From NCBI GenBank assembly GCA_025359725.1, contig JANYEX010000176.1:1-40292 (forward strand): 40,292 nt of DNA. The letters run 5' to 3'. Under the pieces are notes generated by a model that was not told the origin of the DNA, ran no database searches, and saw only the letters and a list, made by a program, of their open reading frames with translations. Numbering within the stretch: position 1 is the first letter of the stretch; the number at the start of each line of letters is the position of its first letter. Below are positions 284 to 17,631 of the stretch, piece by piece. The position numbers were made by a program, and so were the translations under genes. This stretch comes from Chitinophagaceae bacterium (GTDB lineage: Bacteria > Bacteroidota > Bacteroidia > Chitinophagales > Chitinophagaceae).

Positions 284-2980
284 ATGAAACGACTGATATT
301 ATTTTTATTATTTGGTTTGGGATTGCTAAATACAGTCGAAGCGAAGCATTTAAAAGGCGGTTGGATACAGTATGAATATTTAGGGTCTGGTGCTACTGCA
401 AATACCTCAAAATATCGAATTACTGTTAGACAATATGCAACCTGTGGCGGTAATAATGTTTCTCCACAAGATCCTCAGATTATTTTTGGCATTTTTGATG
501 CTAGTAATAATTCATTAATTGAGAATATTCTAATAGACTCTGTTGTGAATGGCGCAACTTACTTAAATAAAGAAAGTTACAATCCTTGCATCAATCCAAA
601 ACCTACAGTTTGTTACATCATAAAAAAATATGTAACAACAGTTGATTTACCTAATAATGACGCTGGTTATATTTTGGCTGTACAACGGTGTTGTCGTATA
701 AACACAATAGTCAACGTGTTTAATTCAGGGTTTGTTGGAATTACTTACTATAATAAAATACCTGGCGGGAGCTATCGTAACTGTAATAGCCCAAGTTTTG
801 TACAAAAAGACACAGTACTAGTTTGCTATAATGCGCCATTTACTTTTAACTTTAGTGCTACAGATACCGCTACTGCATTTGCTCCTGCGGATTCAGTTGC
901 CTATACATTCTGTGATGGCTTTGATGGTGCATCTCACGACAATCCTGGACCTGCATTACCTACTTCACCTCCTTATTCGCTTATTCCATACAATGCACCA
1001 TACAATGGCAGTTCGCCAATGGGTTCAGGTGTAACAATAGACCCACAAACGGGTATTATTTCGGGAACAGCTCCTAGTACTATCGGCGATTATGCGGTGG
1101 CAGTTTGTGCGCTGCAATTTAGAGATGGTATTCTGATAGCTTCTACAAAGAAAGAGATTCATATAACCGTGGGTGATTGTTCTTTAAAGGCTGCCGAGTT
1201 AAAACCTGCATACATAAATTGTAATGATTTAACCTTTAATTTCTTTAATGAGGCAGCTTCAAGCGATATAGTTAAATATTATTGGAATTTTGGCGATACC
1301 ATTAGCTCAATAAAATTTGATACTTCTTCTGCACCCACACCTACACACATATATGCTGATACTGGTATTTATAAAATTGAATTGATGGTTACTGCATCTG
1401 GGGGTTGTGTAGATTCTGCTAAATCTTTAGTACGTGTTTACCCCGGTTTTCAAGCAAAATTTGTAGTAAATAGTAGTTGTATTAAAAACCCTTATCAATT
1501 TATAGACTCTAGTTATAGTAAATATGGTAAGGTTAATAACTGGAGCTGGAATTTGGGGGAACCCGCCGCAGCTAATGATACCACACAAGACCCTTCTTAT
1601 ACGTATAAATCTGCTGGGCAAAAGACTGTTACACTAAAGGTAGCTAATGCTAATGGTTGCATAGATAGTGTTACAAAAATAATTATGGTATTGGATAATC
1701 CGAAAATAGTGTTGCCTTTTGATAGTACCCTAATTTGTAATACTGATACTATACAATTATCTGTTAGCGAATTGAATTCCATAAGTAATGCAACTTACAA
1801 ATGGACATCGCTAGATTCTTTATCTATCACCAACCCAAATACACCCAATCCTTTTGTGCATCCAAAAAATACAGCTATTTATTATGTGACTTTAAGCGAT
1901 AGTGGCTGTTTTGCAAAAGATTCTATTGTTATAAATACAGTGCCTACTATAAAGGTAAAAGCTGGGCCTAAAGATTCTAGTATTTGCCAAACTGACTCAA
2001 TAAAGTTGTATGCCCTTACACAAGGGACTACCATTGCGTGGACCAGTAGTACGTTTGGAGAAAAGATAGATTCTGTAAAAACACCTTGGGTTACACCGCT
2101 AGTAAACCCCACAAACTATTATGTAGTGGCTAGTCTTCGAGATAAATGTTTTGCCAAGGATACTATTTTAGTAAATGTATATCCTTACCCAAAAGTTGAC
2201 GCTGGTGGTAACGATTCTGTTTGTTTTGGCAATGGTATTACACTACACGGAACTGTTGTAGGGGATATATTTAAATGGTCTTCTTTGGATAAAAGCCCAA
2301 TAGATAGTTTAAATCTTATACCTTATGTTACTCCAGATTCTACTACAAAGTATGCGCTTACTGCCTATTATACAAAACAAAATACTTGTTCCAAACCCAA
2401 AAGCGATACAATAACCATTGGTGTTATCCCAAAAGTATTACTCAATGCGGGGGATGATACAACGGTTGTAGTGAACGAGCCTTTGCATTTGGAAGCCAAA
2501 GGAAATTCGGATAGTGTTACCGCCAGTTATCTATGGACAACAAAAGATGGCAGCCCTACTTTTATGAATAATAACGCAATCTATAACCCTGTAGCGATTA
2601 TTCCGCTTGGTACAGATTCTATTGCTTATTTTGTAAAAGCTACCCTAAAGAATCCAAAAGAATGTTATGCGATAGATTCTGTGAAAGTGCTTGTATATCA
2701 GACACCGCCAGAGATATTTGTTCCGAATGTTTTTACACCAAATGCAGGTACTTATAATATCTTTAAACCTATACTAGCAGGTATCTTGTTATTAGATTAT
2801 TTTAATGTTTATAATCGTTTTGGACAATTATTGTATACTACTTCTCAGATAGGGAAAGGATGGGATGGTACCTATAATGGGGTGCCGCAACAGCCAGGAA
2901 CTTATGTTTACACCGTACAGGGGCAAAACTATTTGGGTAAAACCTTGTTTGGCAAAGGTACAGTTGTGTTAATAAGATAA
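284..2980 (+). CDS. Secreted PKD/Ig-repeat protein with gliding-motility type T9SS C-terminal domain
   Basis: This is a large extracellular, probably adhesin-like protein of 898 residues. An in-frame TTG lies at 278, but the ATG at 284 gives a cleaner signal peptide (MKRLILFLLFGLGLL, cleavage near VEAKH), so I chose the ATG. Two PKD-like modules are visible around residues 330-395 and 415-475, with YYWNFGDT and NNWSWNLG at their starts and HIYADTG and YTYKSAG preceding the last strands. Ig-like repeats with regularly spaced cysteines follow. The last 90 or so residues (VPNVFTPN, FNVYNRFGQLLY, GWDGTYNG, PGTYVYTV) match the CHU_C/TIGR04131 gliding motility-associated CTD, which directs export through the type IX system. 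The repeated modules and lack of a catalytic motif suggest surface binding rather than enzymatic work. The substrate cannot be told from sequence. Confidence 0.85.
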   Translation: MKRLILFLLFGLGLLNTVEAKHLKGGWIQYEYLGSGATANTSKYRITVRQYATCGGNNVSPQDPQIIFGIFDASNNSLIENILIDSVVNGATYLNKESYNPCINPKPTVCYIIKKYVTTVDLPNNDAGYILAVQRCCRINTIVNVFNSGFVGITYYNKIPGGSYRNCNSPSFVQKDTVLVCYNAPFTFNFSATDTATAFAPADSVAYTFCDGFDGASHDNPGPALPTSPPYSLIPYNAPYNGSSPMGSGVTIDPQTGIISGTAPSTIGDYAVAVCALQFRDGILIASTKKEIHITVGDCSLKAAELKPAYINCNDLTFNFFNEAASSDIVKYYWNFGDTISSIKFDTSSAPTPTHIYADTGIYKIELMVTASGGCVDSAKSLVRVYPGFQAKFVVNSSCIKNPYQFIDSSYSKYGKVNNWSWNLGEPAAANDTTQDPSYTYKSAGQKTVTLKVANANGCIDSVTKIIMVLDNPKIVLPFDSTLICNTDTIQLSVSELNSISNATYKWTSLDSLSITNPNTPNPFVHPKNTAIYYVTLSDSGCFAKDSIVINTVPTIKVKAGPKDSSICQTDSIKLYALTQGTTIAWTSSTFGEKIDSVKTPWVTPLVNPTNYYVVASLRDKCFAKDTILVNVYPYPKVDAGGNDSVCFGNGITLHGTVVGDIFKWSSLDKSPIDSLNLIPYVTPDSTTKYALTAYYTKQNTCSKPKSDTITIGVIPKVLLNAGDDTTVVVNEPLHLEAKGNSDSVTASYLWTTKDGSPTFMNNNAIYNPVAIIPLGTDSIAYFVKATLKNPKECYAIDSVKVLVYQTPPEIFVPNVFTPNAGTYNIFKPILAGILLLDYFNVYNRFGQLLYTTSQIGKGWDGTYNGVPQQPGTYVYTVQGQNYLGKTLFGKGTVVLIR

Positions 2981-2989
2981 ATTAATTTG

Positions 2990-3748
2990 ATGAGTAAGAT
3001 TGTTTTAATTACTGGTGCTACTTCAGGCTTTGGAAAAGCGATGGCACAAAAGTTTGCCTCAGGCGGATATAATTGTATTATTACTGGAAGAAGAGAAGCG
3101 AAGCTTTTGGAAATTGCAGATGAAATAAAACAACAATATGGAACAGAAGTATTGCAATTAGTTTTTGATGTACAGGATAAAAAAGCAGTTTTTGAAGCAA
3201 TAGAATCATTGCCAGAAGAATGGAAAGCAATAGACATATTAATAAATAATGCCGGACTAGCATTGGGTAAGGATAGTTTTGAAGATGCCAGCCTTTCAGA
3301 TTGGGAAACGATGATAGATACAAATGTAAAAGGACTTTTGTATATCTCAAAAGCAGTTGTACCATTAATGATTGCCCATAAAAGTGGACATATAATTAAT
3401 CTGGGTTCCACAGCAGGAAAAGAAGTTTATAAGGAAGGAAATGTTTATTGTGCCACCAAGCATGCTGTAGATGCTTTAAGTAAAGCAATGCGTGTGGATT
3501 TATTGCCTAATAAAATAAAAGTTACCGCCATACATCCTGGTGCTGCAGACACAGATTTCTCTAACATAAGATTTAAGGGAGACGGAACTAAATCAGCGGC
3601 AGTATACGAGGGATATACCCCCTTACACGCAGAAGATATTGCCGATATTGCTTTTTATTGTGCATCTTTGCCAGCGCATGTTTGTATAAATGACCTTGTG
3701 GTTACTTGTACAGCACAAGCAAATGCTACACTACTTTATAAAGGGTAA
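2990..3748 (+). CDS. SDR family NAD(P)-dependent oxidoreductase, YdfG-like
   Basis: This is a short-chain dehydrogenase/reductase of 252 residues, cytosolic, with a classical Rossmann fold. The cofactor motif TGATSGFG lies near residues 8-15, NNAG near 86-89, and the catalytic set is S140, Y153 and K157 (YCATK). The arginine pair in TGRREAK after strand 2 is typical of NADP(H) preference. Overall spacing resembles the YdfG group (3-hydroxy acid / L-allo-threonine dehydrogenases), but the substrate is inferred only from family resemblance. The ATG at 2990 was preferred over the TTG at 2987. The gene begins 9 nt after the stop of the T9SS protein and may be co-transcribed with it, though no functional link is evident. 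Confidence 0.9.
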   Translation: MSKIVLITGATSGFGKAMAQKFASGGYNCIITGRREAKLLEIADEIKQQYGTEVLQLVFDVQDKKAVFEAIESLPEEWKAIDILINNAGLALGKDSFEDASLSDWETMIDTNVKGLLYISKAVVPLMIAHKSGHIINLGSTAGKEVYKEGNVYCATKHAVDALSKAMRVDLLPNKIKVTAIHPGAADTDFSNIRFKGDGTKSAAVYEGYTPLHAEDIADIAFYCASLPAHVCINDLVVTCTAQANATLLYKG

Positions 3749-9330: not shown

Positions 9331-11082
9331 ATGAACACAGAAATTCTCGGAGTCATCCTTATGTTCTTGGTTACAGTTGGCTTAGCAATCCCTTTAGGTC
9401 GGTACATTGGCAAAGTTTATTTGGGAGATTCAACTTGGGCAGACGGTATTTTTAATCTGTTAGACAAATTATTTTACAAGGTTGGTGGCGTGAGTCCAGC
9501 CAAAGAAATGAATTGGAAACAACATTTGGTAGCACTGTTAACTATCAACTTAGTTTGGTTTTTATTCTCTATGTTGGTATTGATGACGCAAGGTTCATTG
9601 CCATTAAACCCAGATGGTAACCCGTCCATGAGTGCAGATCAGGCATTTAACACCACTATTAGTTTCGTTTCCAACACCAATTTACAGCATTATAGTGGAG
9701 AAAGTAACATGTCGTATCTGGGTCAATTGGTATTGATGCTTTTCCAATTTGTAAGTGCCGCAGCAGGAATGGCAGTTTGTGCTGCTGTATTTTTATTGAT
9801 GAGACCAAACTTTAAATTTCAAAAAGGAACGGATGGCTTGGTTATCAGCGGAAACTTTTACAGCCTTTTCGTTAAATCATTAACAAGAATATTATTGCCT
9901 TTATCTATTGTGGTTGCTGTGATTCTATTATTCAACGGCACACCGATGACATTTAAAGGCAAAGACCAAATTATCTCTGCACAAGGAGATACAATCTCGG
10001 TTAGTAGAGGGCCAGCCGCTGCCATGGTTGCCATAAAACAACTTGGCACGAATGGTGGCGGCTTTTTTGGGGCTAATTCTGCGCACCCATTAGAAAACCC
10101 TAACTACTTTACTAATATCGTTGAAAATGTTTCCATTATTTTGATTCCTGTAGCAATGATTTTTTCTTTAGGATTCATTATTAAAAAGAAACGTTTTGGA
10201 AGGATGGTTTTTGGAATAATGACTCTCGGGTTTCTTATTTTCCTATTACCAACTATTTATCTGGAGATGCACGGCAATCCTGCCATAAGCAAAATGGGCA
10301 TAACCCAAAACTTAGGAAGCATGGAGGGGAAAGAAGTGCGATTTGGCTCTGCTGCCTCAGCCTTTTGGGCAATAACTACCACCGTGACATCCAATGGTTC
10401 AGTAAACGCGATGCACGATAGTCTAACCCCTCTTTCTGGAATGTTTTGTTTATTGGGTATGATGGTAAACGCCTTTTATGGCGGTGTAGGTGTAGGATTC
10501 CTAAACTTCTACATATTTATAATCATTGCTGTATTCATCAGTGGATTGATGGTGGGCAGAACACCAGAGTTTTTAGGTAAAAAGATAGAAGCCAAAGAAA
10601 TGAAGATTGCAGCAATTATTGCCTTGCTTCATCCATTCTTAATATTGGTAGGCAGTTCTATTTCATCTTACTTATTTGCCCATAACCCAACCGAATATGC
10701 AGCTTGGTTGAGTAATCCTGGCAATCATGGTTTTAGCGAAATGTTGTATGAGTTTACCTCTTCCTCTGCAAACAATGGTAGTGGTTTTGAAGGATTGGGT
10801 TATGGCAACGGTTCTTCTGTTGGCGACAATACCCCTTTCTGGAATATTTCCTGTGGTATAGTAATGCTATTGGGTAGGTTCTTACCAATCATTGGTCCAG
10901 TAGCAATTGCAGGTATTTTGGCTAATAAAAAGTATGTACCAGAAAGTGCAGGTACTTTACAAACAGATACAGGCACATTCGGTATCATGATCTTCGCTGT
11001 AATCTTTATCATTGCTGCATTGTCTTTCTTCCCTGCTTTAGCATTGGGACCTATAGCAGAGTACTTTGGAATGAAACCCTAA
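9331..11082 (+). CDS. kdpA: Potassium-transporting ATPase subunit KdpA
   Basis: This is the potassium-channel-like subunit of the high-affinity Kdp pump, an inner-membrane protein of 583 residues with about ten membrane helices. The four selectivity-filter-like segments are visible: SFVSNTNLQHYSGE, GTNGGGFFGANSAHPLENP, TVTSNGSVNAMHDSLTP and EFTSSSANNGSGFEGL. All key glycines and asparagines appear intact. It directly follows kdpF. It should be followed at once by kdpB, but here a 713-bp stretch carrying a minus-strand toxin-antitoxin module intervenes. Confidence 0.97.
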   Translation: MNTEILGVILMFLVTVGLAIPLGRYIGKVYLGDSTWADGIFNLLDKLFYKVGGVSPAKEMNWKQHLVALLTINLVWFLFSMLVLMTQGSLPLNPDGNPSMSADQAFNTTISFVSNTNLQHYSGESNMSYLGQLVLMLFQFVSAAAGMAVCAAVFLLMRPNFKFQKGTDGLVISGNFYSLFVKSLTRILLPLSIVVAVILLFNGTPMTFKGKDQIISAQGDTISVSRGPAAAMVAIKQLGTNGGGFFGANSAHPLENPNYFTNIVENVSIILIPVAMIFSLGFIIKKKRFGRMVFGIMTLGFLIFLLPTIYLEMHGNPAISKMGITQNLGSMEGKEVRFGSAASAFWAITTTVTSNGSVNAMHDSLTPLSGMFCLLGMMVNAFYGGVGVGFLNFYIFIIIAVFISGLMVGRTPEFLGKKIEAKEMKIAAIIALLHPFLILVGSSISSYLFAHNPTEYAAWLSNPGNHGFSEMLYEFTSSSANNGSGFEGLGYGNGSSVGDNTPFWNISCGIVMLLGRFLPIIGPVAIAGILANKKYVPESAGTLQTDTGTFGIMIFAVIFIIAALSFFPALALGPIAEYFGMKP

Positions 11083-11121: not shown

Positions 11122-11467
11122 TTAGTGATTTATTGCTCCTTTAATAAAACGGAGAACATCCAACAAGTTCTGTTCAAATGACGGTAAGACATTAGTTTCA
11201 AGTCCAACATGTTTATGACGGGGAAATGTTTCAGAAACTTCAGGAAAGTGTGGGGAATTATCCCAACGGATAATTTAACTAGCATCAGGATTTAACCAAT
11301 GATAGGAACAATCACATAAAACATCTTTAATAATGATTTCACGTGGGAAGATAACAGATTCATCACGCAATACCAATTTGATTTTAGTTTTAGTCAAGTC
11401 TATTTTCTTGTAGCGAATCTTCAAAAGATTTGATGGTATCATTAAAACGCGAGACAGTGGATAGCAT
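11122..11467 (-). pseudogene. Broken TumE-like (DUF6516) toxin gene
   Basis: Translating the minus strand from the ATG at 11467, which overlaps the antitoxin stop as TAATG, gives MLSTVSRFNDTIKSFEDSLQ and then a frame change near 11400. The next frame continues KIDLTKTKIKLVL and reaches CSYHWLNPDAS. An in-frame TAA at 11275-11277 interrupts it, after which IIRWDNSPHFPEV, TFPRHKHVG and LDVLRFIKGAINH complete the protein. The order 'YHW ... RWDN-PH ... TFP-HKH ... VL-FI' is what I know of the TumE-type toxins (DUF6516). Two lesions, a frameshift and a nonsense codon, imply that the toxin is dead. It lies antisense inside the kdpA-kdpB gap. Confidence 0.65.
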
Positions 11468-11763
11468 TAGCTTAGTTTGGAAAGTCGATTCATTAAAATG
11501 TCTAAATGTTTTAATTCTGCGTTCCAGTCTGCACTATCTTCTTCCTTTTCAAAAAGAGGCTGAGGTAGGGAGTGAAAATTCTTACAGAATTCAGCATAGT
11601 CAATTCCATATTTATTTGAAAAGAAGGACATCCGCTGTGTACAATTGGCTACTTCTTTCAGTAAAGTTTCTTTAGCTTTCTCTATTGCAAAATCTTCAAC
11701 TGAATTAAAGCCCAATTGGAAAATGGTTTCATGAAGCACTAAAGATTGTTCGTTTACTAGCAT
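11467..11763 (-). CDS. Putative antitoxin paired with a TumE-like toxin
   Basis: This is an intact 98-residue, largely helical protein. The N-terminal half includes FNSVEDFAIEKAKETLLKEV. The middle NKYGIDYAEFCKNF is followed by an acidic stretch and then a SADWNAELKHLDILMNRLS helix. The pattern 'KYG-x-x-x-EF ... E-E-D-x-x-DW' resembles small proteins encoded immediately upstream of DUF6516 toxins. Its stop overlaps the toxin ATG, the usual TA operon arrangement. It is divergent from kdpB, with only 32 bp between start codons, so their promoters must overlap if kdpB has one. Family assignment is from memory. Confidence 0.6.
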   Translation of the reverse strand: MLVNEQSLVLHETIFQLGFNSVEDFAIEKAKETLLKEVANCTQRMSFFSNKYGIDYAEFCKNFHSLPQPLFEKEEDSADWNAELKHLDILMNRLSKLS

Positions 11764-11795: not shown

Positions 11796-13823
11796 ATGTC
11801 AACAAAGTCAAACAAACTCTTCGAGCCAGCCTTGGTAAAAGAAGCTCTAAAGCATTCTTTTATTAAACTGAACCCGAAAATTATGTTTCGTAATCCCGTA
11901 ATGTTTACGGTAGAAATAGGCACGGCCGTAATGCTCGGCGTATGTATCTGGATTGTTTGTGGGGATAAAACGCAGGGAAGTCTTGCTTACAACCTGATAG
12001 TTTTCGGGGTATTATTTTTAACCTTGTTGTTTGCAAACTTCGCAGAAGCAATTGCCGAAGCAAGGGGTAAAGCACAAGCGGATAGTCTTAGAAAAACAAG
12101 GGAAGAAACACCCGCCAAATGGATTGAAGCAGGAAAGGACGTAAAAATAGTTCCGTCATCTCAACTTAAGAAAGGTGATATTTTCCTTTGCGAAACTGGA
12201 GATACCATTCCGATGGATGGGGAGATAATTGAAGGTATCGCTACCATCGATGAAAGCGCTATTACTGGTGAATCTGCTCCAGTAATCAGGGAGTCTGGTG
12301 GCGATAAAAGCTCTGTAACTGGTGGCACGAAAGTATTATCCGACAGAATTAAGGTAAAAGTTACCACTGAGCCCGGTGAAAGCTTTTTGGATAAAATGAT
12401 TGCCCTTGTAGAAGGCGCTAGTCGCCAAAAAACACCAAATGAAATAGCATTGACTATCTTATTGGCTGGTTTTACATTGGTATTCATTATTGTGTGTGTT
12501 ACCTTGAAACCTTTTGCTGATTATGCAAATACGCCAATCACAATTGCTGCGTTTATCTCTTTGTTCGTTTGTTTAATTCCTACTACTATCGGTGGCTTGT
12601 TAAGTGCTATTGGTATTGCGGGTATGGACAGGGCATTGCGGGCAAACGTTATCACCAAGAGTGGTAAGGCTGTAGAAACCGCTGGCGACTTAGATACTTT
12701 ATTACTCGATAAAACAGGAACTATTACCATTGGTAATAGAAAGGCAACCAACTTCTGGCCAGCAAGTGGTGTTGATCCAAAGGCTTTTATTGATGCTTGT
12801 GTGTTGTCTTCCCTAGCAGATGAAACACCAGAGGGTAAGTCAATTATAGAATTGGCAAACCTTAGCAAGGATACTTTTAATATTGAGGGCGCAAGGTTTA
12901 TTGAGTTCACTGCCGAGACAAGGTGCAGCGGTATTGATTTGGCAACGGGCTTGCGCATTCGAAAAGGTGCTTCTGATTCAATAAGAATGATTGCTGAAAA
13001 AGCAGGCAACTCTTATCCACCAGAAACTAATGAGCAAGTAAAAAAGATTTCTTCCAATGGTGGAACGCCACTAGTGGTTTCCCAAAACGAACAGATATTA
13101 GGAGTAATTGAATTGCAGGATATTATTAAACCTGGTATCCAAGAAAGGTTTGAACGCCTACGGAAAATGGGCGTAAAGACTGTAATGGTAACAGGTGATA
13201 ATCCTTTGACCGCTAAGTTTATTGCAGAAAAAGCAGGTGTCGATGACTTTATTGCCGAAGCGAAACCTGAGGATAAAATGAACTACATCAAGCAAGAGCA
13301 ACAAGGTGGTAAACTGGTGGCTATGATGGGTGATGGTACTAATGATGCTCCTGCTTTGGCGCAAGCGGATGTAGGAGTTGCTATGAATAGTGGTACAGCA
13401 GCAGCAAAAGAAGCAGGTAATATGGTTGATTTGGACAATGACCCTACCAAGCTCATTGAAATAGTAGAAATAGGAAAGCAATTGTTGATGACAAGGGGTA
13501 CTTTGACTACGTTCTCAATTGCTAATGATGTGGCTAAGTATTTCGCCATCGTTCCAGCGTTGTTTATTGCATCTATTCCAAGTTTGCAAAGTTTAAATGT
13601 GATGAAGCTACATAGCCCGGAGAGTGCTATACTTTCCGCAGTAATTTTTAATGCTATCATTATTCCTGCGTTGATTCCTTTGGCACTAAAGGGTGTTGCT
13701 TATAAACCAATTGGTGCAAGTGCCTTGTTGAGAAGAAACTTATTAATCTACGGTTTGGGCGGTGTAATCGTTCCTTTTATTGGGATTAAGTTATTGGATA
13801 TGGTAGTTAGTATTTGGTTTTAA
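11796..13823 (+). CDS. kdpB: Potassium-transporting ATPase catalytic subunit KdpB
   Basis: This P-type ATPase subunit hydrolyses ATP to drive potassium uptake through KdpA. The protein has 675 residues, the normal length, with seven expected membrane helices. The phosphorylation motif DKTGTIT starts at D305. The actuator loop TGES lies at 157-160, and its serine is the residue phosphorylated in inhibited E. coli KdpB (Ser162). IPTTIGGLL lies in the membrane domain, and [12 protein letters not shown] is the hinge motif. All key residues are intact. It is separated from kdpA by 713 bp and from kdpC by 252 bp, both filled by minus-strand genes. Confidence 0.97.
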
Positions 13824-13826
13824 ATT

Positions 13827-13865
13827 AATAATCTTTATAGGGTTTTAAACCCTATAAAGATTATT
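13827..13865. repeat. 39-nt near-perfect palindrome after kdpB
   Basis: The arms AATAATCTTTATAGGGTTT and its exact complement (19 bp each) are separated by one T. It starts 3 nt after the kdpB stop and overlaps the last codons of the minus-strand antitoxin-like gene. It can fold on either strand and could be a bidirectional terminator or an mRNA processing site. Neither side has a long T run. Confidence 0.85.
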
Positions 13866-14042
13866 TCCAACAAGTTTATATATGTATTCTTCAAATTCTT
13901 TCATCGTAAAAGTGATTCCTTTTCCCTGTTTAAATTCTTGTTGGGCGTCTTTTATTCTTGAATAGACTTCTTCTGATTCATAGTATTTATTGGAAGAATT
14001 TGTTCTACTCTCTTCATCCTCATTATCTATATTGTTACTCAT
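13845..14042 (-). CDS. Small antitoxin-like protein, orphan
   Basis: This 65-residue acidic protein has a disordered N-terminus (MSNNIDNEDEESRTNSSNKY) and a C-terminal segment with YSRIKDAQQEFKQGKGITFT and MKEFEEYI. The 'I-x-x-A-x-x-x-x-x-x-GK-x-x-T-x-x-E-x-E-x-Y' pattern is common in Bacteroidota antitoxins paired with RelE/ParE toxins. No toxin gene lies on either side, so it would be an orphan. I chose the ATG at 14042; a longer frame to 14171 would overlap kdpC with non-family sequence. It lies antisense between kdpB and kdpC. Confidence 0.5.
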   Translation of the reverse strand: MSNNIDNEDEESRTNSSNKYYESEEVYSRIKDAQQEFKQGKGITFTMKEFEEYIYKLVGNNLYRV

Positions 14043-14075
14043 AAATTTATTTTCGTCAAATCTAAAACAAATAAA

Positions 14076-14648
14076 ATGAAACAACACATTCTTCCCGCAT
14101 TGAGGCTTACTGGTGTCAGTATAGTGGTGTTTTGCGGATTGTATACATTGGTTATTCTTGGTTTTGCACAAGTGGCGCCTAACAAAGGCGAGGGTGAAAC
14201 AATCTCTGTAAATGGAAAAGTAAGGGGCTACGCCTTAGAAGGGCAAAACTTTACGCAGGATAAATATTTTAATGGTCGCCCTTCTGCTGCTGGTAATGGT
14301 TACAATGCCTCTGCCTCTTCGGGTAGCAATTTGGGGCCATCGAACCCTGCTTATCTAAAACAAGTTCACGATAGGATTGATACCTTTTTGATACATAATC
14401 CTACCATTACTAAACTAGATGTTCCTGCCGATTTGGTTACTTCTTCTGGTAGTGGTTTAGATCCTAATATTAGCGTTATGGGGGCTTTGGTTCAGGTAAA
14501 TAGGGTAGCCAAAGAGCGCAAACTTGCTCCTGACCTAGTACTTGCTTTGGTAAATTCTCATAAAGAAATGCCCTTATTTGGCTTATTCGGTACAGAAAAA
14601 GTAAATGTTTTGAAACTGAACATTGCTTTGGATGAGATGAAGAAATAG
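14076..14648 (+). CDS. kdpC: Potassium-transporting ATPase subunit KdpC
   Basis: KdpC is the periplasmic/membrane-anchored subunit of the Kdp complex. The protein has 190 residues, with one N-terminal membrane helix (residues 8-31) and the family segments NGRPSAAGNGYNASASSGSN, LGPSNP and the C-terminal LVNSHKEMPLFGLFG. The motif SGSGLDPNIS is the KdpC hallmark. It is intact. It lies 252 bp after kdpB, in contrast to the near-contact usual for kdpB and kdpC. Confidence 0.96.
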   Translation: MKQHILPALRLTGVSIVVFCGLYTLVILGFAQVAPNKGEGETISVNGKVRGYALEGQNFTQDKYFNGRPSAAGNGYNASASSGSNLGPSNPAYLKQVHDRIDTFLIHNPTITKLDVPADLVTSSGSGLDPNISVMGALVQVNRVAKERKLAPDLVLALVNSHKEMPLFGLFGTEKVNVLKLNIALDEMKK

Positions 14649-14664
14649 GCATAAGTTTTAAGTA

Positions 14665-14747
14665 GTAAGTCATAAGTCGTAAGTCATAAAGGGGTGCCCC
14701 AACTGATAAAGGGTATGCCCCAACTCATAAAGGTGACCACCGAATTG
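14665..14747. repeat. Short direct repeats between kdpC and kdpD
   Basis: GTAAGTCATAA occurs twice (14665-14675, 14679-14689). It is followed by three imperfect units of 20-21 bp: ATAAAGGGGTGCCCCAACTG at 14686, ATAAAGGGTATGCCCCAACT at 14706 and ATAAAGGTGACCACCGAATT at 14727. The first two units contain small GC-rich palindromes (GGGG-TG-CCCC). Confidence 0.7.
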
Positions 14748-14821
14748 AGTAATATCGTCTGTAAATGAATATTTTTAATCCATTTATTTTATTTAACCCA
14801 GCTTAATAATAACTTTACGAT

Positions 14822-15949
14822 ATGCCAGAAGAAGTAAGAAATAATGCCGAACACTTTTTAGACCTTATACGCAAAAGCAGGCGTGGGAAGTTTAAAATTT
14901 ATATAGGAATGAGTGCTGGCGTGGGTAAAACCTACCGGATGCTTCAAGAAGCGCATACACTGTTGCGTAATGGTGTTGACATAAAGATTGGTTATATAGA
15001 AACACATAACCGAAAAGAAACGCACGATTTACTAGATGGTCTGCCTCTTGTTCCCCGAAGGAAATTATTTTATAAAGGCAAAGAACTGGAAGAATTTGAT
15101 ATGCAGGCTGTACTAAACCTGCATCCAGAAGTGGTTATTATTGATGAATTGGCGCATTCAAACATTGAGGGTAGCAAGAATGATAAGCGTTGGAAAGATG
15201 TGATGGATATTTTAGATGCAGGCATTAATGTAATCAGTGCCGTAAACATCCAGCACATAGAAAGCCTTAACAATGAAGTAAAAAATATTACGGGTATTAG
15301 TGTTTCTGAAAGGATTCCCGATAGTGTTTTGCAACAGGCAGATGAGGTGGTAAATATTGACCTTACTGCCGATGAATTGATTGTAAGACTAAAGGAAGGA
15401 AAGATTTATACGCCTGATAAGATTCAGATTTCATTAAATAATTTCTTTAAAAGCGAAAAAATCTTACAACTCAGAGAACTTGCCCTGAAGGAAGTAGCTA
15501 GTCAGGTTGAGCGTAAAATTGAAATAGAAATACCTAGAAATGCCCAACTAAAGCCAGAACGCTTTTTGGCGTGTATTAGTAGTAACCACGAAATTGCGAG
15601 GAAAGTAATACGGAAAACTGCTAAGATGGCTTCCTATTACAACCGCAAATGGTTCTTATTATACGTACAAACTCCAAAGGAAGATGGGGACAATATTGGG
15701 TTGGCTGCGCAAAGAAAGCTCATCAATAATTTTAAGATGGCTACAGAATTGGGCGCAGAAGTAATTAGGGTTAAAAATAAAAGTATTGCAAAAGGAATTT
15801 TGGAAGCAGCAGAACAAAAACAAATTACAACCATCTGTATTGGCAAACCTCACCTAAATTTGATGAATGTAATCTTGGGTTCAGCAGTGTTTAATAAAGT
15901 ACTAAAAGCACTTTCTGCCTCAGAAATTGATATTATAATTCTTTCGTAA
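14822..15949 (+). CDS. kdpD: KdpD-type sensor protein lacking the kinase part
   Basis: This 375-residue cytosolic protein holds only the N-terminal half of classical KdpD. The KdpD domain (about residues 20-220) has a Walker A-like GMSAGVGKT (29-37) and a Walker B-like VVIIDELAHSN. A universal stress protein-like domain follows (about 245-375), starting RFLACISSNHEIA. The four-helix membrane sensor, GAF and histidine kinase parts of E. coli KdpD are missing. The next gene, a separate membrane kinase, overlaps it by one base (TAATG), so translation is coupled. I infer that the two together replace a single KdpD. Confidence 0.9.
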   Translation: MPEEVRNNAEHFLDLIRKSRRGKFKIYIGMSAGVGKTYRMLQEAHTLLRNGVDIKIGYIETHNRKETHDLLDGLPLVPRRKLFYKGKELEEFDMQAVLNLHPEVVIIDELAHSNIEGSKNDKRWKDVMDILDAGINVISAVNIQHIESLNNEVKNITGISVSERIPDSVLQQADEVVNIDLTADELIVRLKEGKIYTPDKIQISLNNFFKSEKILQLRELALKEVASQVERKIEIEIPRNAQLKPERFLACISSNHEIARKVIRKTAKMASYYNRKWFLLYVQTPKEDGDNIGLAAQRKLINNFKMATELGAEVIRVKNKSIAKGILEAAEQKQITTICIGKPHLNLMNVILGSAVFNKVLKALSASEIDIIILS

Positions 15950-17631
15950 TGAAACTAAAGGCTAAGTTAACATTAGGCATCGGCTTTCTCTTTTTGGTGA
16001 TATTGGTATTTGGAATATTAGGGATTGTCTCAATTAGCAGATTAAGCATAGACGCAGACAAGATTTTAAAGAATAACTATGAGACTTTGGTTTATGATAA
16101 CAATATGCTAAAGGCTTTGGATGAGTTGCCAGGAAACCAGAAAGCATTTAATTATTTTGAATCAAACCTAAAGAAACAAGAAAACAACATAACCGAATTT
16201 GGAGAGGGGGACGCAACCAGACTCTTAAGGACAAATTTTGAAGAGTTAAAGCGAAACCCTAACGATAGTAGCAACTACAGAGAAATTAGTCAGGCCATAC
16301 AGCTTATAAATACCATTAACCAGAATGCTATTTTACGCAAAAATGCTACTGCGCAACATACCGCCAACAGTGCAATTTTTTGGCTCACAATCATCTTTTC
16401 AATCCTAACTATTCTTTCTTTTACGCTTACGCTAAATTTTCCAGCTGTTATTTCTAAACCTGTAAAAGCATTAGCCGAGGGTATTAAAGAGATTGCCAAC
16501 AAGAATTACGGAAATAGGATTGTGTTGGAGCAAAATGATGAATTTAAGGAACTGGCAGATGCTATAAATACAATGGCTGGGAAGCTGGATGAATATGAGA
16601 ATAGTAATCTTGCTAAGATAAAATTTGAGAAAAGTAGAATTGAAACTATCATCAATCAAATGAAAGATGGCATTATAGGGATGGACGAAAACAACCATAT
16701 ACTGTTTTTAAATGCAGTTTCGGAAAAAATGTTGGGACTGAAAGAAAAAGAAATTATTGGTCAATATGCTCCAGATGTTGCTATCCAAAATGATTTGATG
16801 CGGAGGTTGTTACAAGACGAAAAGCAGAACGAACTAAAGATATTTGCGGATAAAAAGGAAAGTTATTTTAATAAGGAAGTAATAAGCGTGAGTAATGAAG
16901 ACCAACTGATAGGAAAAGTAATTGTTCTGAAAAATATTACGCCTTTCCACGAGTTAAATGAGGCAAAAACCAATTTCATAGCCACTGTTTCCCATGAACT
17001 AAAGACCCCAATATCATCTATAAAGATGAGTTTGAAATTGCTTGAAAATAAAATAACAGGCAATTTAAACGAAGATCAAGCCCAATTGGTAGATAGTATA
17101 AAGGACGATAGTAATAGGCTTTTGAAAATAACGGGAGAACTTTTGAACATGTCTCAAGTAGAAACAGGTAACATACAACTAAATATACAGCCTTGCCCCC
17201 CGTACGATATTTTACAGTACGCCATAGAAGCGGTAAGGGTTCAGGCAGACCAAAAGCACATTACTCTTACCGTAAATGCCGCTACCAACTTGCCAAAAGT
17301 GAAGGCGGATAAAGAAAAGACAGCATGGGTATTAATTAATTTCCTCACTAACGCCATTAGATATACCAACGAAATGGGGGAGGTAACAATAGATATCCAA
17401 AAGGAAAATGGAAAAGTTTGTTTTATGGTAATTGACTACGGAAAGGGCATTGAATCAAAATACATAAGTAAGATTTTTGATAGATATTTTCAAGTGCCTG
17501 GCACTATAAAAACGGGTACAGGTCTTGGTCTTGCCATCAGCAAAGAATTTGTAGAAGCCCAAGGCGGCAGCATACATGTGGATAGCGAATTTGGCGTTGG
17601 AAGCACCTTCTATTTCTATTTATTGAGCTAA
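15949..17631 (+). CDS. Membrane histidine kinase with HAMP and PAS domains
   Basis: This sensor kinase has 560 residues. Membrane helix 1 spans about residues 7-29, a periplasmic region 30-140, and helix 2 about 142-164. HAMP spans about 166-220 and PAS about 225-335. HisKA carries H349 in ATVSHELKTP, and the HATPase domain has the N box NFLTNAIRYT, the G1 box DYGKGIE and the G2 box GTGLGLAIS. It is translationally coupled to the short KdpD, and no response regulator follows. The likely partner is the sigma-54 regulator at 7489 (inference). The periplasmic region looks helical and gives no ligand clue. Confidence 0.9.
   Translation: MKLKAKLTLGIGFLFLVILVFGILGIVSISRLSIDADKILKNNYETLVYDNNMLKALDELPGNQKAFNYFESNLKKQENNITEFGEGDATRLLRTNFEELKRNPNDSSNYREISQAIQLINTINQNAILRKNATAQHTANSAIFWLTIIFSILTILSFTLTLNFPAVISKPVKALAEGIKEIANKNYGNRIVLEQNDEFKELADAINTMAGKLDEYENSNLAKIKFEKSRIETIINQMKDGIIGMDENNHILFLNAVSEKMLGLKEKEIIGQYAPDVAIQNDLMRRLLQDEKQNELKIFADKKESYFNKEVISVSNEDQLIGKVIVLKNITPFHELNEAKTNFIATVSHELKTPISSIKMSLKLLENKITGNLNEDQAQLVDSIKDDSNRLLKITGELLNMSQVETGNIQLNIQPCPPYDILQYAIEAVRVQADQKHITLTVNAATNLPKVKADKEKTAWVLINFLTNAIRYTNEMGEVTIDIQKENGKVCFMVIDYGKGIESKYISKIFDRYFQVPGTIKTGTGLGLAISKEFVEAQGGSIHVDSEFGVGSTFYFYLLS

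Follow-up and report, generated by a model that had tools for sequence, protein, structure and literature searches.

A small antisense gene between kdpB and kdpC of a Chitinophagaceae bacterium, most likely what remains of a YoeB-type pair after loss of its toxin

Results

A minus-strand gene occupies the kdpB-kdpC gap

The window analyzed here is a 40,292-nt stretch of DNA from a Chitinophagaceae bacterium (assembly GCA_025359725.1, contig JANYEX010000176.1; genome G000 in our set). Its plus strand carries kdpA (9331–11082, from the ORF list), kdpB (11796–13823, from the ORF list and related loci), and an intact, 190-residue kdpC (14076–14648, from the ORF list and the loci of relatives), which from gene order and general knowledge we take to be one operon. 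Between the kdpB stop at 13823 and the kdpC start at 14076 lies a 252-nt gap, mostly taken up by a minus-strand ORF at 13845–14042. This ORF has an ATG start and 65 codons and lies entirely inside the gap; a TTG start option for the same frame would give 108 residues and extend into kdpC. An earlier note on this DNA had described a small, 65-residue, antitoxin-like gene at the junction with no toxin adjoining it, and its strand, length, and location are confirmed.

It is very improbable that this frame is a spurious ORF in ordinary spacer. Such a reading would agree with the database searches, in which no curated family exceeded its cut-off: the top Pfam match, DUF2683 (PF10884; E = 0.033), scored 14.9 bits, below its threshold of 27, NCBIfam gave a single chance-level match, and PADLOC gave none. 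However, when the gap was simulated 2000 times with a first-order Markov model, an ATG-initiated ORF of at least 65 residues arose at a rate of 0.1% on the minus strand and 0.3% on either strand, and the frame has homologues at the orthologous site of relatives as well as a conserved leader. A chance ORF was rejected on the basis of this homology and the simulated rate of 0.1%.

The homology points to a specific origin. An antitoxin homology search gave matches at E ≤ 1 in 14 of 59 genomes, the window's own genome being counted among them. The top two matches of the 65-residue protein among the 58 relatives came from G010 (E = 1.1e-4) and G006 (E = 0.009), and both lie antisense in the kdpB-kdpC junction, immediately upstream of kdpC. 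These counterparts are full antitoxins of 82 or 79 residues, each with a YoeB toxin gene after it (PF06769, E = 1e-26 and 3e-24; TIGR02116 above cut-off). Aligned with YoeB-paired antitoxins, the window protein has only the C-terminal half in common with them, from approximately YYESEEVY onward. Identity over this partial length is 38% in the alignment, and 40–45% over 30–40 residues in the search; the first ∼19 residues are unrelated. The label "antitoxin-like" thus stands by homology to the G010 and G006 proteins and fails by curated family.

The gap is empty of any toxin gene, as had been claimed, and G000 (an assembly 96% complete, in 334 contigs) gave no YoeB match at E ≤ 1e-5. A YoeB-type type II module (PF06769, TIGR02116) consists, in the homologues at this junction, of an antitoxin plus YoeB. 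The window shows the antitoxin relationship (G010, E = 1.1e-4); unlike such a module, it lacks the adjacent YoeB/Txe toxin gene and the N-terminal half of the antitoxin. Since the genome has no YoeB match and only the C-terminal half is kept, we read the gene as a decayed antitoxin whose toxin was deleted. On this sequence evidence, it is most likely a toxinless remnant of a YoeB-type pair and not a stand-alone antitoxin insertion. The gene is single-copy, with no second copy in its own genome. A contig-wide pattern scan for a close homologue produced 44 pattern matches, none of them confirmed, in a collection from which very near records may be missing. A comparable relic is found in G025 (L061/L131), where a 391-nt gap holds an antitoxin match (E = 1e-7) and the junction has no YoeB match.

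The C-terminal half of such antitoxins binds the toxin. The retained half could therefore serve to neutralize incoming YoeB toxins, a use that would fit its alignment with YoeB-paired antitoxins, the retention of a promoter leader, and the wide presence of YoeB in the family (in 122 of 394 genomes), with none found in the window's own genome. We nevertheless consider this unlikely: identity to every antitoxin found is low, and decay alone suffices as an explanation.

A terminator-like hairpin separates the relic from kdpB

The 3′ end of the relic runs into a 39-nt perfect palindrome (13827–13865) with 19-nt arms and a 1-nt center, located between the convergent stops of kdpB and the ORF. The RNA hairpin that it would form has a predicted energy of −21.2 kcal/mol (z = −5.6). 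A terminator scan did not list it, and neither strand has more than a weak U tract. Its core recurs in G000, with 5 places at up to three mismatches. Among the four copies examined, including the window's own, two lie between convergent ORFs and two between codirectional ones. As only some copies sit where genes converge, we call the hairpin terminator-like only.

A conserved antisense leader carries a putative promoter element

The kdpC-proximal end of the gap is formed by a 27-nt antisense leader (14049–14075, minus strand) that is identical in G001 and G006 and carries two mismatches in G010 and three in G005. It is thus kept within two mismatches in four genomes and within three in a fifth, ahead of unrelated cargo. 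The window and G001, despite their unrelated cargo, have the same 36 nt between the kdpC start and the antisense ATG. Within the leader, TAGATTTG (14057–14064, minus strand) fits TAnnTTTG, the consensus of the Bacteroidota −7 promoter element. A TTG at 14082–14084, 17 nt upstream of TAGATTTG and inside the first kdpC codons, is present in the window and missing from G001, G006, and G010.

Searched as a pattern with up to three mismatches, the leader occurred in 5 of 13 genomes of the genus (G000, G001, G005, G006, and G010), once in each and always at kdpB-kdpC; a reversed control pattern gave zero matches. The G005 leader precedes a PIN pair and is separated from kdpC by a 75-residue ORF, and G007, which has the 75-residue ORF at its junction, has no leader. 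This antisense ORF is kept between G005 and G007 (L036, 5858–6085; L037, 1946–2173) and has no Pfam match.

The same element marks occupied junctions more broadly. An antisense TAnnTTTG within 30 nt of the kdpC start was present at 10 of 13 occupied kdpB-kdpC junctions versus 7 of 98 short empty ones; near the kdpB start, it was present at 24 of 31 occupied kdpA-kdpB junctions versus 2 of 71 short empty ones. Longer gaps without a cargo match had none (0/6 and 0/5), and the survey found no sense-strand copies. Fisher tests gave p = 9e-8 for kdpB-kdpC and 5e-15 for kdpA-kdpB, values that overstate the significance because the rows are related. The counts leave out the eight duplicates of genus loci, L126–L147, and L106, L111, and L120, whose contigs are shared with later loci. 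At L061, the element near kdpC is distant from the antitoxin start. Judging by the motif and how well it is conserved, the leader promoter probably drives transcription of the minus strand in the window's gap. On the plus strand, the gap has no TAnnTTTG, so kdpC probably relies on read-through from kdpB.

The kdpA-kdpB junction holds an interrupted TumE-TumA cassette

The first antisense gene of the operon (11467–11763, minus strand), at the kdpA-kdpB junction, is also real. It encodes a 98-residue TumA-like antitoxin (NCBIfam E = 0.0068, below the TumA cut-off) and is followed by a TumE toxin reading frame, identified by homology, with one in-frame stop (matched stretch 11128–11421, minus strand). 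TumE-TumA (PF20126) has been described as a validated translation-targeting pair (PMC10584680), and the words "kdp" and "potassium" are absent from the main text of that description. The kdpA-kdpB cassettes of the window, G003, Runella, and Larkinella resemble this pair. The window's copy differs from it in the in-frame stop of TumE and in a TumA-like protein that falls under the TumA cut-off. Both toxins are lost in the window: there is no YoeB, and TumE is interrupted, with its TumA-like antitoxin kept.

In the window's family, TumE was found in 2 of 394 genomes, with both copies at kdpA-kdpB. A phylum sample had TumE in 11 of 395 genomes (14 places); G000 and G601, the two TumE-bearing genomes from the window's class, have it at kdpA-kdpB, and the 12 places in other classes do not. 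In the family of G601, TumE was present in 51 of 190 genomes, at 63 places among the matches listed. There, kdpA and/or kdpB was seen at 31 of 62 TumE loci, or 30 of 61 distinct loci, one having been counted twice. The TumE frames of these 30 distinct kdp loci are mostly uninterrupted; the exceptions are G601 and one of the two G830 copies, which have stops, and G828, which has a fragment. In a TumE tree of 68 rows, 29 of them at kdp (L225, L238, L254, and rows below the length limit being omitted), most kdp copies clustered, the window and G003 stood apart, and six changes were counted, three of them forced. That most kdp copies group together indicates that TumE at kdp largely reflects inheritance.

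Tandem double TumE genes occur at kdpA-kdpB in L256/L238 (G852:C9) and L225 (G830:C73), the G830 contig stopping before kdpB. In L215 (G871:C63, ∼1500–3242), the potassium transporter gene kup (PF02705, E = 9e-122) is immediately preceded by an antisense TumE-TumA-like pair with one stop in its TumE; no other searched TumE or YoeB locus matched the same Kup. In L193 (G665:C41), an antisense TumE pair lies between a cytochrome c-like ORF and, as judged by eye, a possible respiratory complex subunit, which would be a further case of an antisense insertion within what may be an operon.

Both kdp junctions appear to be recurrent antisense landing sites

The earlier note had proposed a survey of kdp junctions for small inserts. 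Among 13 genomes of the genus, kdpC was found in 12 and a readable kdpB-kdpC junction in 11; the G009 contig begins at kdpC, and G012 has no kdpC match. We scored a junction as occupied when it matched our list of cargo proteins; no unmatched junction in the genus and named sets measured at least 300 nt. Six of the 11 readable kdpB-kdpC junctions were occupied, all of them antisense: by the window relic, by YoeB pairs in G006 and G010, by PIN pairs in G001 and G005, and by the 75-residue ORF in G007 (present also in G005). At kdpA-kdpB, two of nine readable junctions were occupied (the window and G003), both with TumE-TumA-type cargo.

Outside the genus, where many of the named relatives are metagenome bins, a set of 80 named kdpC loci minus 8 duplicates of genus loci gave occupied junctions at 4 of 69 readable kdpB-kdpC sites and 3 of 61 readable kdpA-kdpB sites. 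These loci belong to Ferruginibacter (L055), Parafilimonas (L061), Runella (L106, both junctions), Dyadobacter (L121, PIN), Larkinella (L111), and Cytophagales (L120); the YoeB of Ferruginibacter carries an in-frame stop. A further kind of cargo, an antisense 23S_rRNA_IVP four-helix protein, is found at kdpA-kdpB in G268 and at kdpB-kdpC in G174 (PF05635, E = 3e-38 and 1e-37), G268 having been chosen for its YoeB at kdp and G174 being an arbitrary pick. YoeB lies at kdpB-kdpC in G006, G010, G268, G123, Runella/G908, and G900. The claim that two insertions at the two junctions of one operon are unlikely by chance gains support, since double occupancy recurs outside the window in Runella/G908, G900, and G268.

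Across all kdp loci read, with duplicates removed, 44 junctions were occupied: 31 at kdpA-kdpB, of which 29 come from one family selected because TumE was present, and 13 at kdpB-kdpC. At all 44, every cargo match was antisense. In 150 kdp loci (1.35 Mb, some duplicates), the single cargo match outside the junctions was a YoeB in G150, ∼7 kb upstream of kdpC, a comparison that favors junctions because the queries were drawn from them and that does not include outside matches of the 65-residue query. The proposal of operon junctions as tolerated landing sites is thereby supported and sharpened: our survey suggests that both kdp junctions are recurrent sites, with a fixed antisense orientation and several kinds of cargo.

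There is a 4-nt overlap between the last cargo ORF and the kdpB stop in G001, G005, G006, G010, and L055; at the other kdpB-kdpC loci, that ORF ends 1–17 nt short of the kdpB stop, or farther. TumE commonly overlaps kdpA by 4–14 nt, with no overlap in the window or G003.

One could suppose that such pairs protect a rarely needed kdp operon from deletion by addiction, and uninterrupted pairs do lie inside kdp in many genomes. This would, however, leave the many cargo-free kdp operons and the fixed orientation unexplained, and the toxin is absent from the window and from G025/L061 and interrupted by an in-frame stop in Ferruginibacter L055. We regard it as quite unlikely.

Arrivals at kdp are few, and orientation elsewhere is mixed

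YoeB gave 194 matches in the 122 family genomes that have it. Among the 150 places in the matches listed, four are in the kdpB-kdpC junction (G010, G006, G268, and G123), against a rough chance expectation of ∼0.02, a guess based on 160 places. Placement relied on tblastn of 30 loci plus 14 more, none of the latter at kdp, with the rest assigned by eye from contig and position or by the absence of a kdpC match in the genome. A YoeB tree (33 rows of a short protein, many forks weak) required four label changes, which may be gains or losses, three of them forced by supported branches, and the kdp copies formed one group in 0% of 200 bootstraps. The tree argues against a single arrival of YoeB at kdp.

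Away from kdp, YoeB with codirectional neighbors was antisense in nine cases and sense in seven; the set comprised 30 loci, of which 4 were at kdp, 7 had neighbors on different strands, and 3 were unclear. For TumE (77 loci, one without a match), the corresponding counts were 12 antisense and 19 sense, with 8 of the 12 from genus g309. In both sets, the neighbor calls came from a simple script that finds ORFs. These ratios led us to reject a general antisense habit on the part of the cargo families. The bias at kdp is thus not a plain family habit, and the independent arrivals at kdp are few. The PIN toxin matched in 9 of 137 family genomes (15 places listed), G001 and G005 not being among the nine; 0 of 12 PIN loci matched KdpA, KdpB, or KdpC, and the other three lie off the kdp contig of their genome.

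Discussion

We think it probable that the 65-residue gene is what is left of a YoeB-type pair, decayed and without its toxin, at an antisense cassette site between kdpB and kdpC. In the genus, this site would consist of a leader with a promoter-like element, which in four genomes starts beside the first codon of kdpC, followed by interchangeable cargo (a YoeB pair, a PIN pair, or the window relic) whose last stop often overlaps that of kdpB. Strains probably swapped cassettes through homologous recombination within the conserved kdp sequences on either side, an exchange presumably preceded by rarer first insertions. The case for exchange rests on the common 27- to 36-nt leader, which selection could conserve too. 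The window's cassette appears to have lost both its toxin and the N-terminal half of its antitoxin, and a hairpin sets the gene apart from kdpB. Two sources would be left for any remaining effect: the half of the protein that binds toxin, and a short antisense transcript adjoining the kdpC start. We expect the effect on kdp to be modest at most.

It is useful to compare this arrangement with the noncontiguous operon of Staphylococcus aureus, menE-menC-MW1733-ytkD-MW1731, in which, as described in PMC7154746, polymerase collision and RNase III mediate mutual regulation between the polycistronic mRNA and the mRNA of the opposite strand. The kdp operon of the window likewise contains an opposite-strand gene with its own promoter-like element. 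It differs in that the inner gene is a toxin–antitoxin cassette or relic, that the cargo varies between genomes, and that the arrangement is known here from sequence. With a cassette in place, kdpABC would become a noncontiguous operon whose transcription traverses the cassette in the opposite direction, so kdp and cassette could each interfere with the other. In open-licence PubMed Central, searched by title and abstract, no account of toxin–antitoxin genes within kdp was found.

This geometry, together with the promoter element by the kdpC start, makes it plausible that antisense transcripts tune kdp expression, which was the other proposal of the earlier note. A fuller version holds that the antisense cassette and kdp control each other through transcription interference or RNase III processing, such that low potassium, with kdp switched on, shuts the antitoxin off, or that the antisense transcript lowers kdpC. 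We entertain it as a tentative possibility. The invariant orientation (44 of 44 occupied junctions) would be expected, as would the antisense promoter element next to the start of a kdp gene in many of them, and the tail-to-tail stop overlaps at many loci leave little room for a terminator. In addition, the TumE frames at kdp are mostly uninterrupted, one TumE pair adjoins kup, and operons of the noncontiguous type have been described (PMC7154746). However, the orientation bias may reflect nothing more than co-transcription and the loss of sense insertions. Outside the genus, 65 of 69 and 58 of 61 readable junctions are without cargo, and the cargo families differ. In the window itself, the toxins are dead and a hairpin stands between the gene and kdpB. 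A still bolder version would make the kdp junctions of Bacteroidota a dedicated antisense platform coupling potassium limitation to toxin–antitoxin pairs: with kdp on, transcription through the junction would silence the antitoxin and free the toxin, causing growth arrest under potassium stress, and the window's lineage would have disarmed both of its cassettes. We consider that version improbable.

The preferred reading, a decayed cassette at a recurrent site, places the window in a wider setting. Here is a conserved operon whose internal junctions have been filled repeatedly by unrelated toxin–antitoxin families, always antisense in the examined set and, in the window's genus, behind a common promoter leader. 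The resulting natural series of empty, intact, and decayed junctions offers a way to test how an operon is affected by a gene on its opposite strand and whether toxin–antitoxin pairs can be wired to potassium stress.

The region downstream of kdpC is variable as well. The window's kdpC-kdpD gap (14649–14821) contains short repeats, including two 21-nt copies; by eye, the corresponding gaps of G002, G005, G006, G009, and G011 contain repetitive ORFs, and the gap varies in length among these genomes. Beyond it (14822–17631), a 375-residue protein resembling the KdpD N terminus and a separate 560-residue histidine kinase, also judged by eye, replace the single KdpD.
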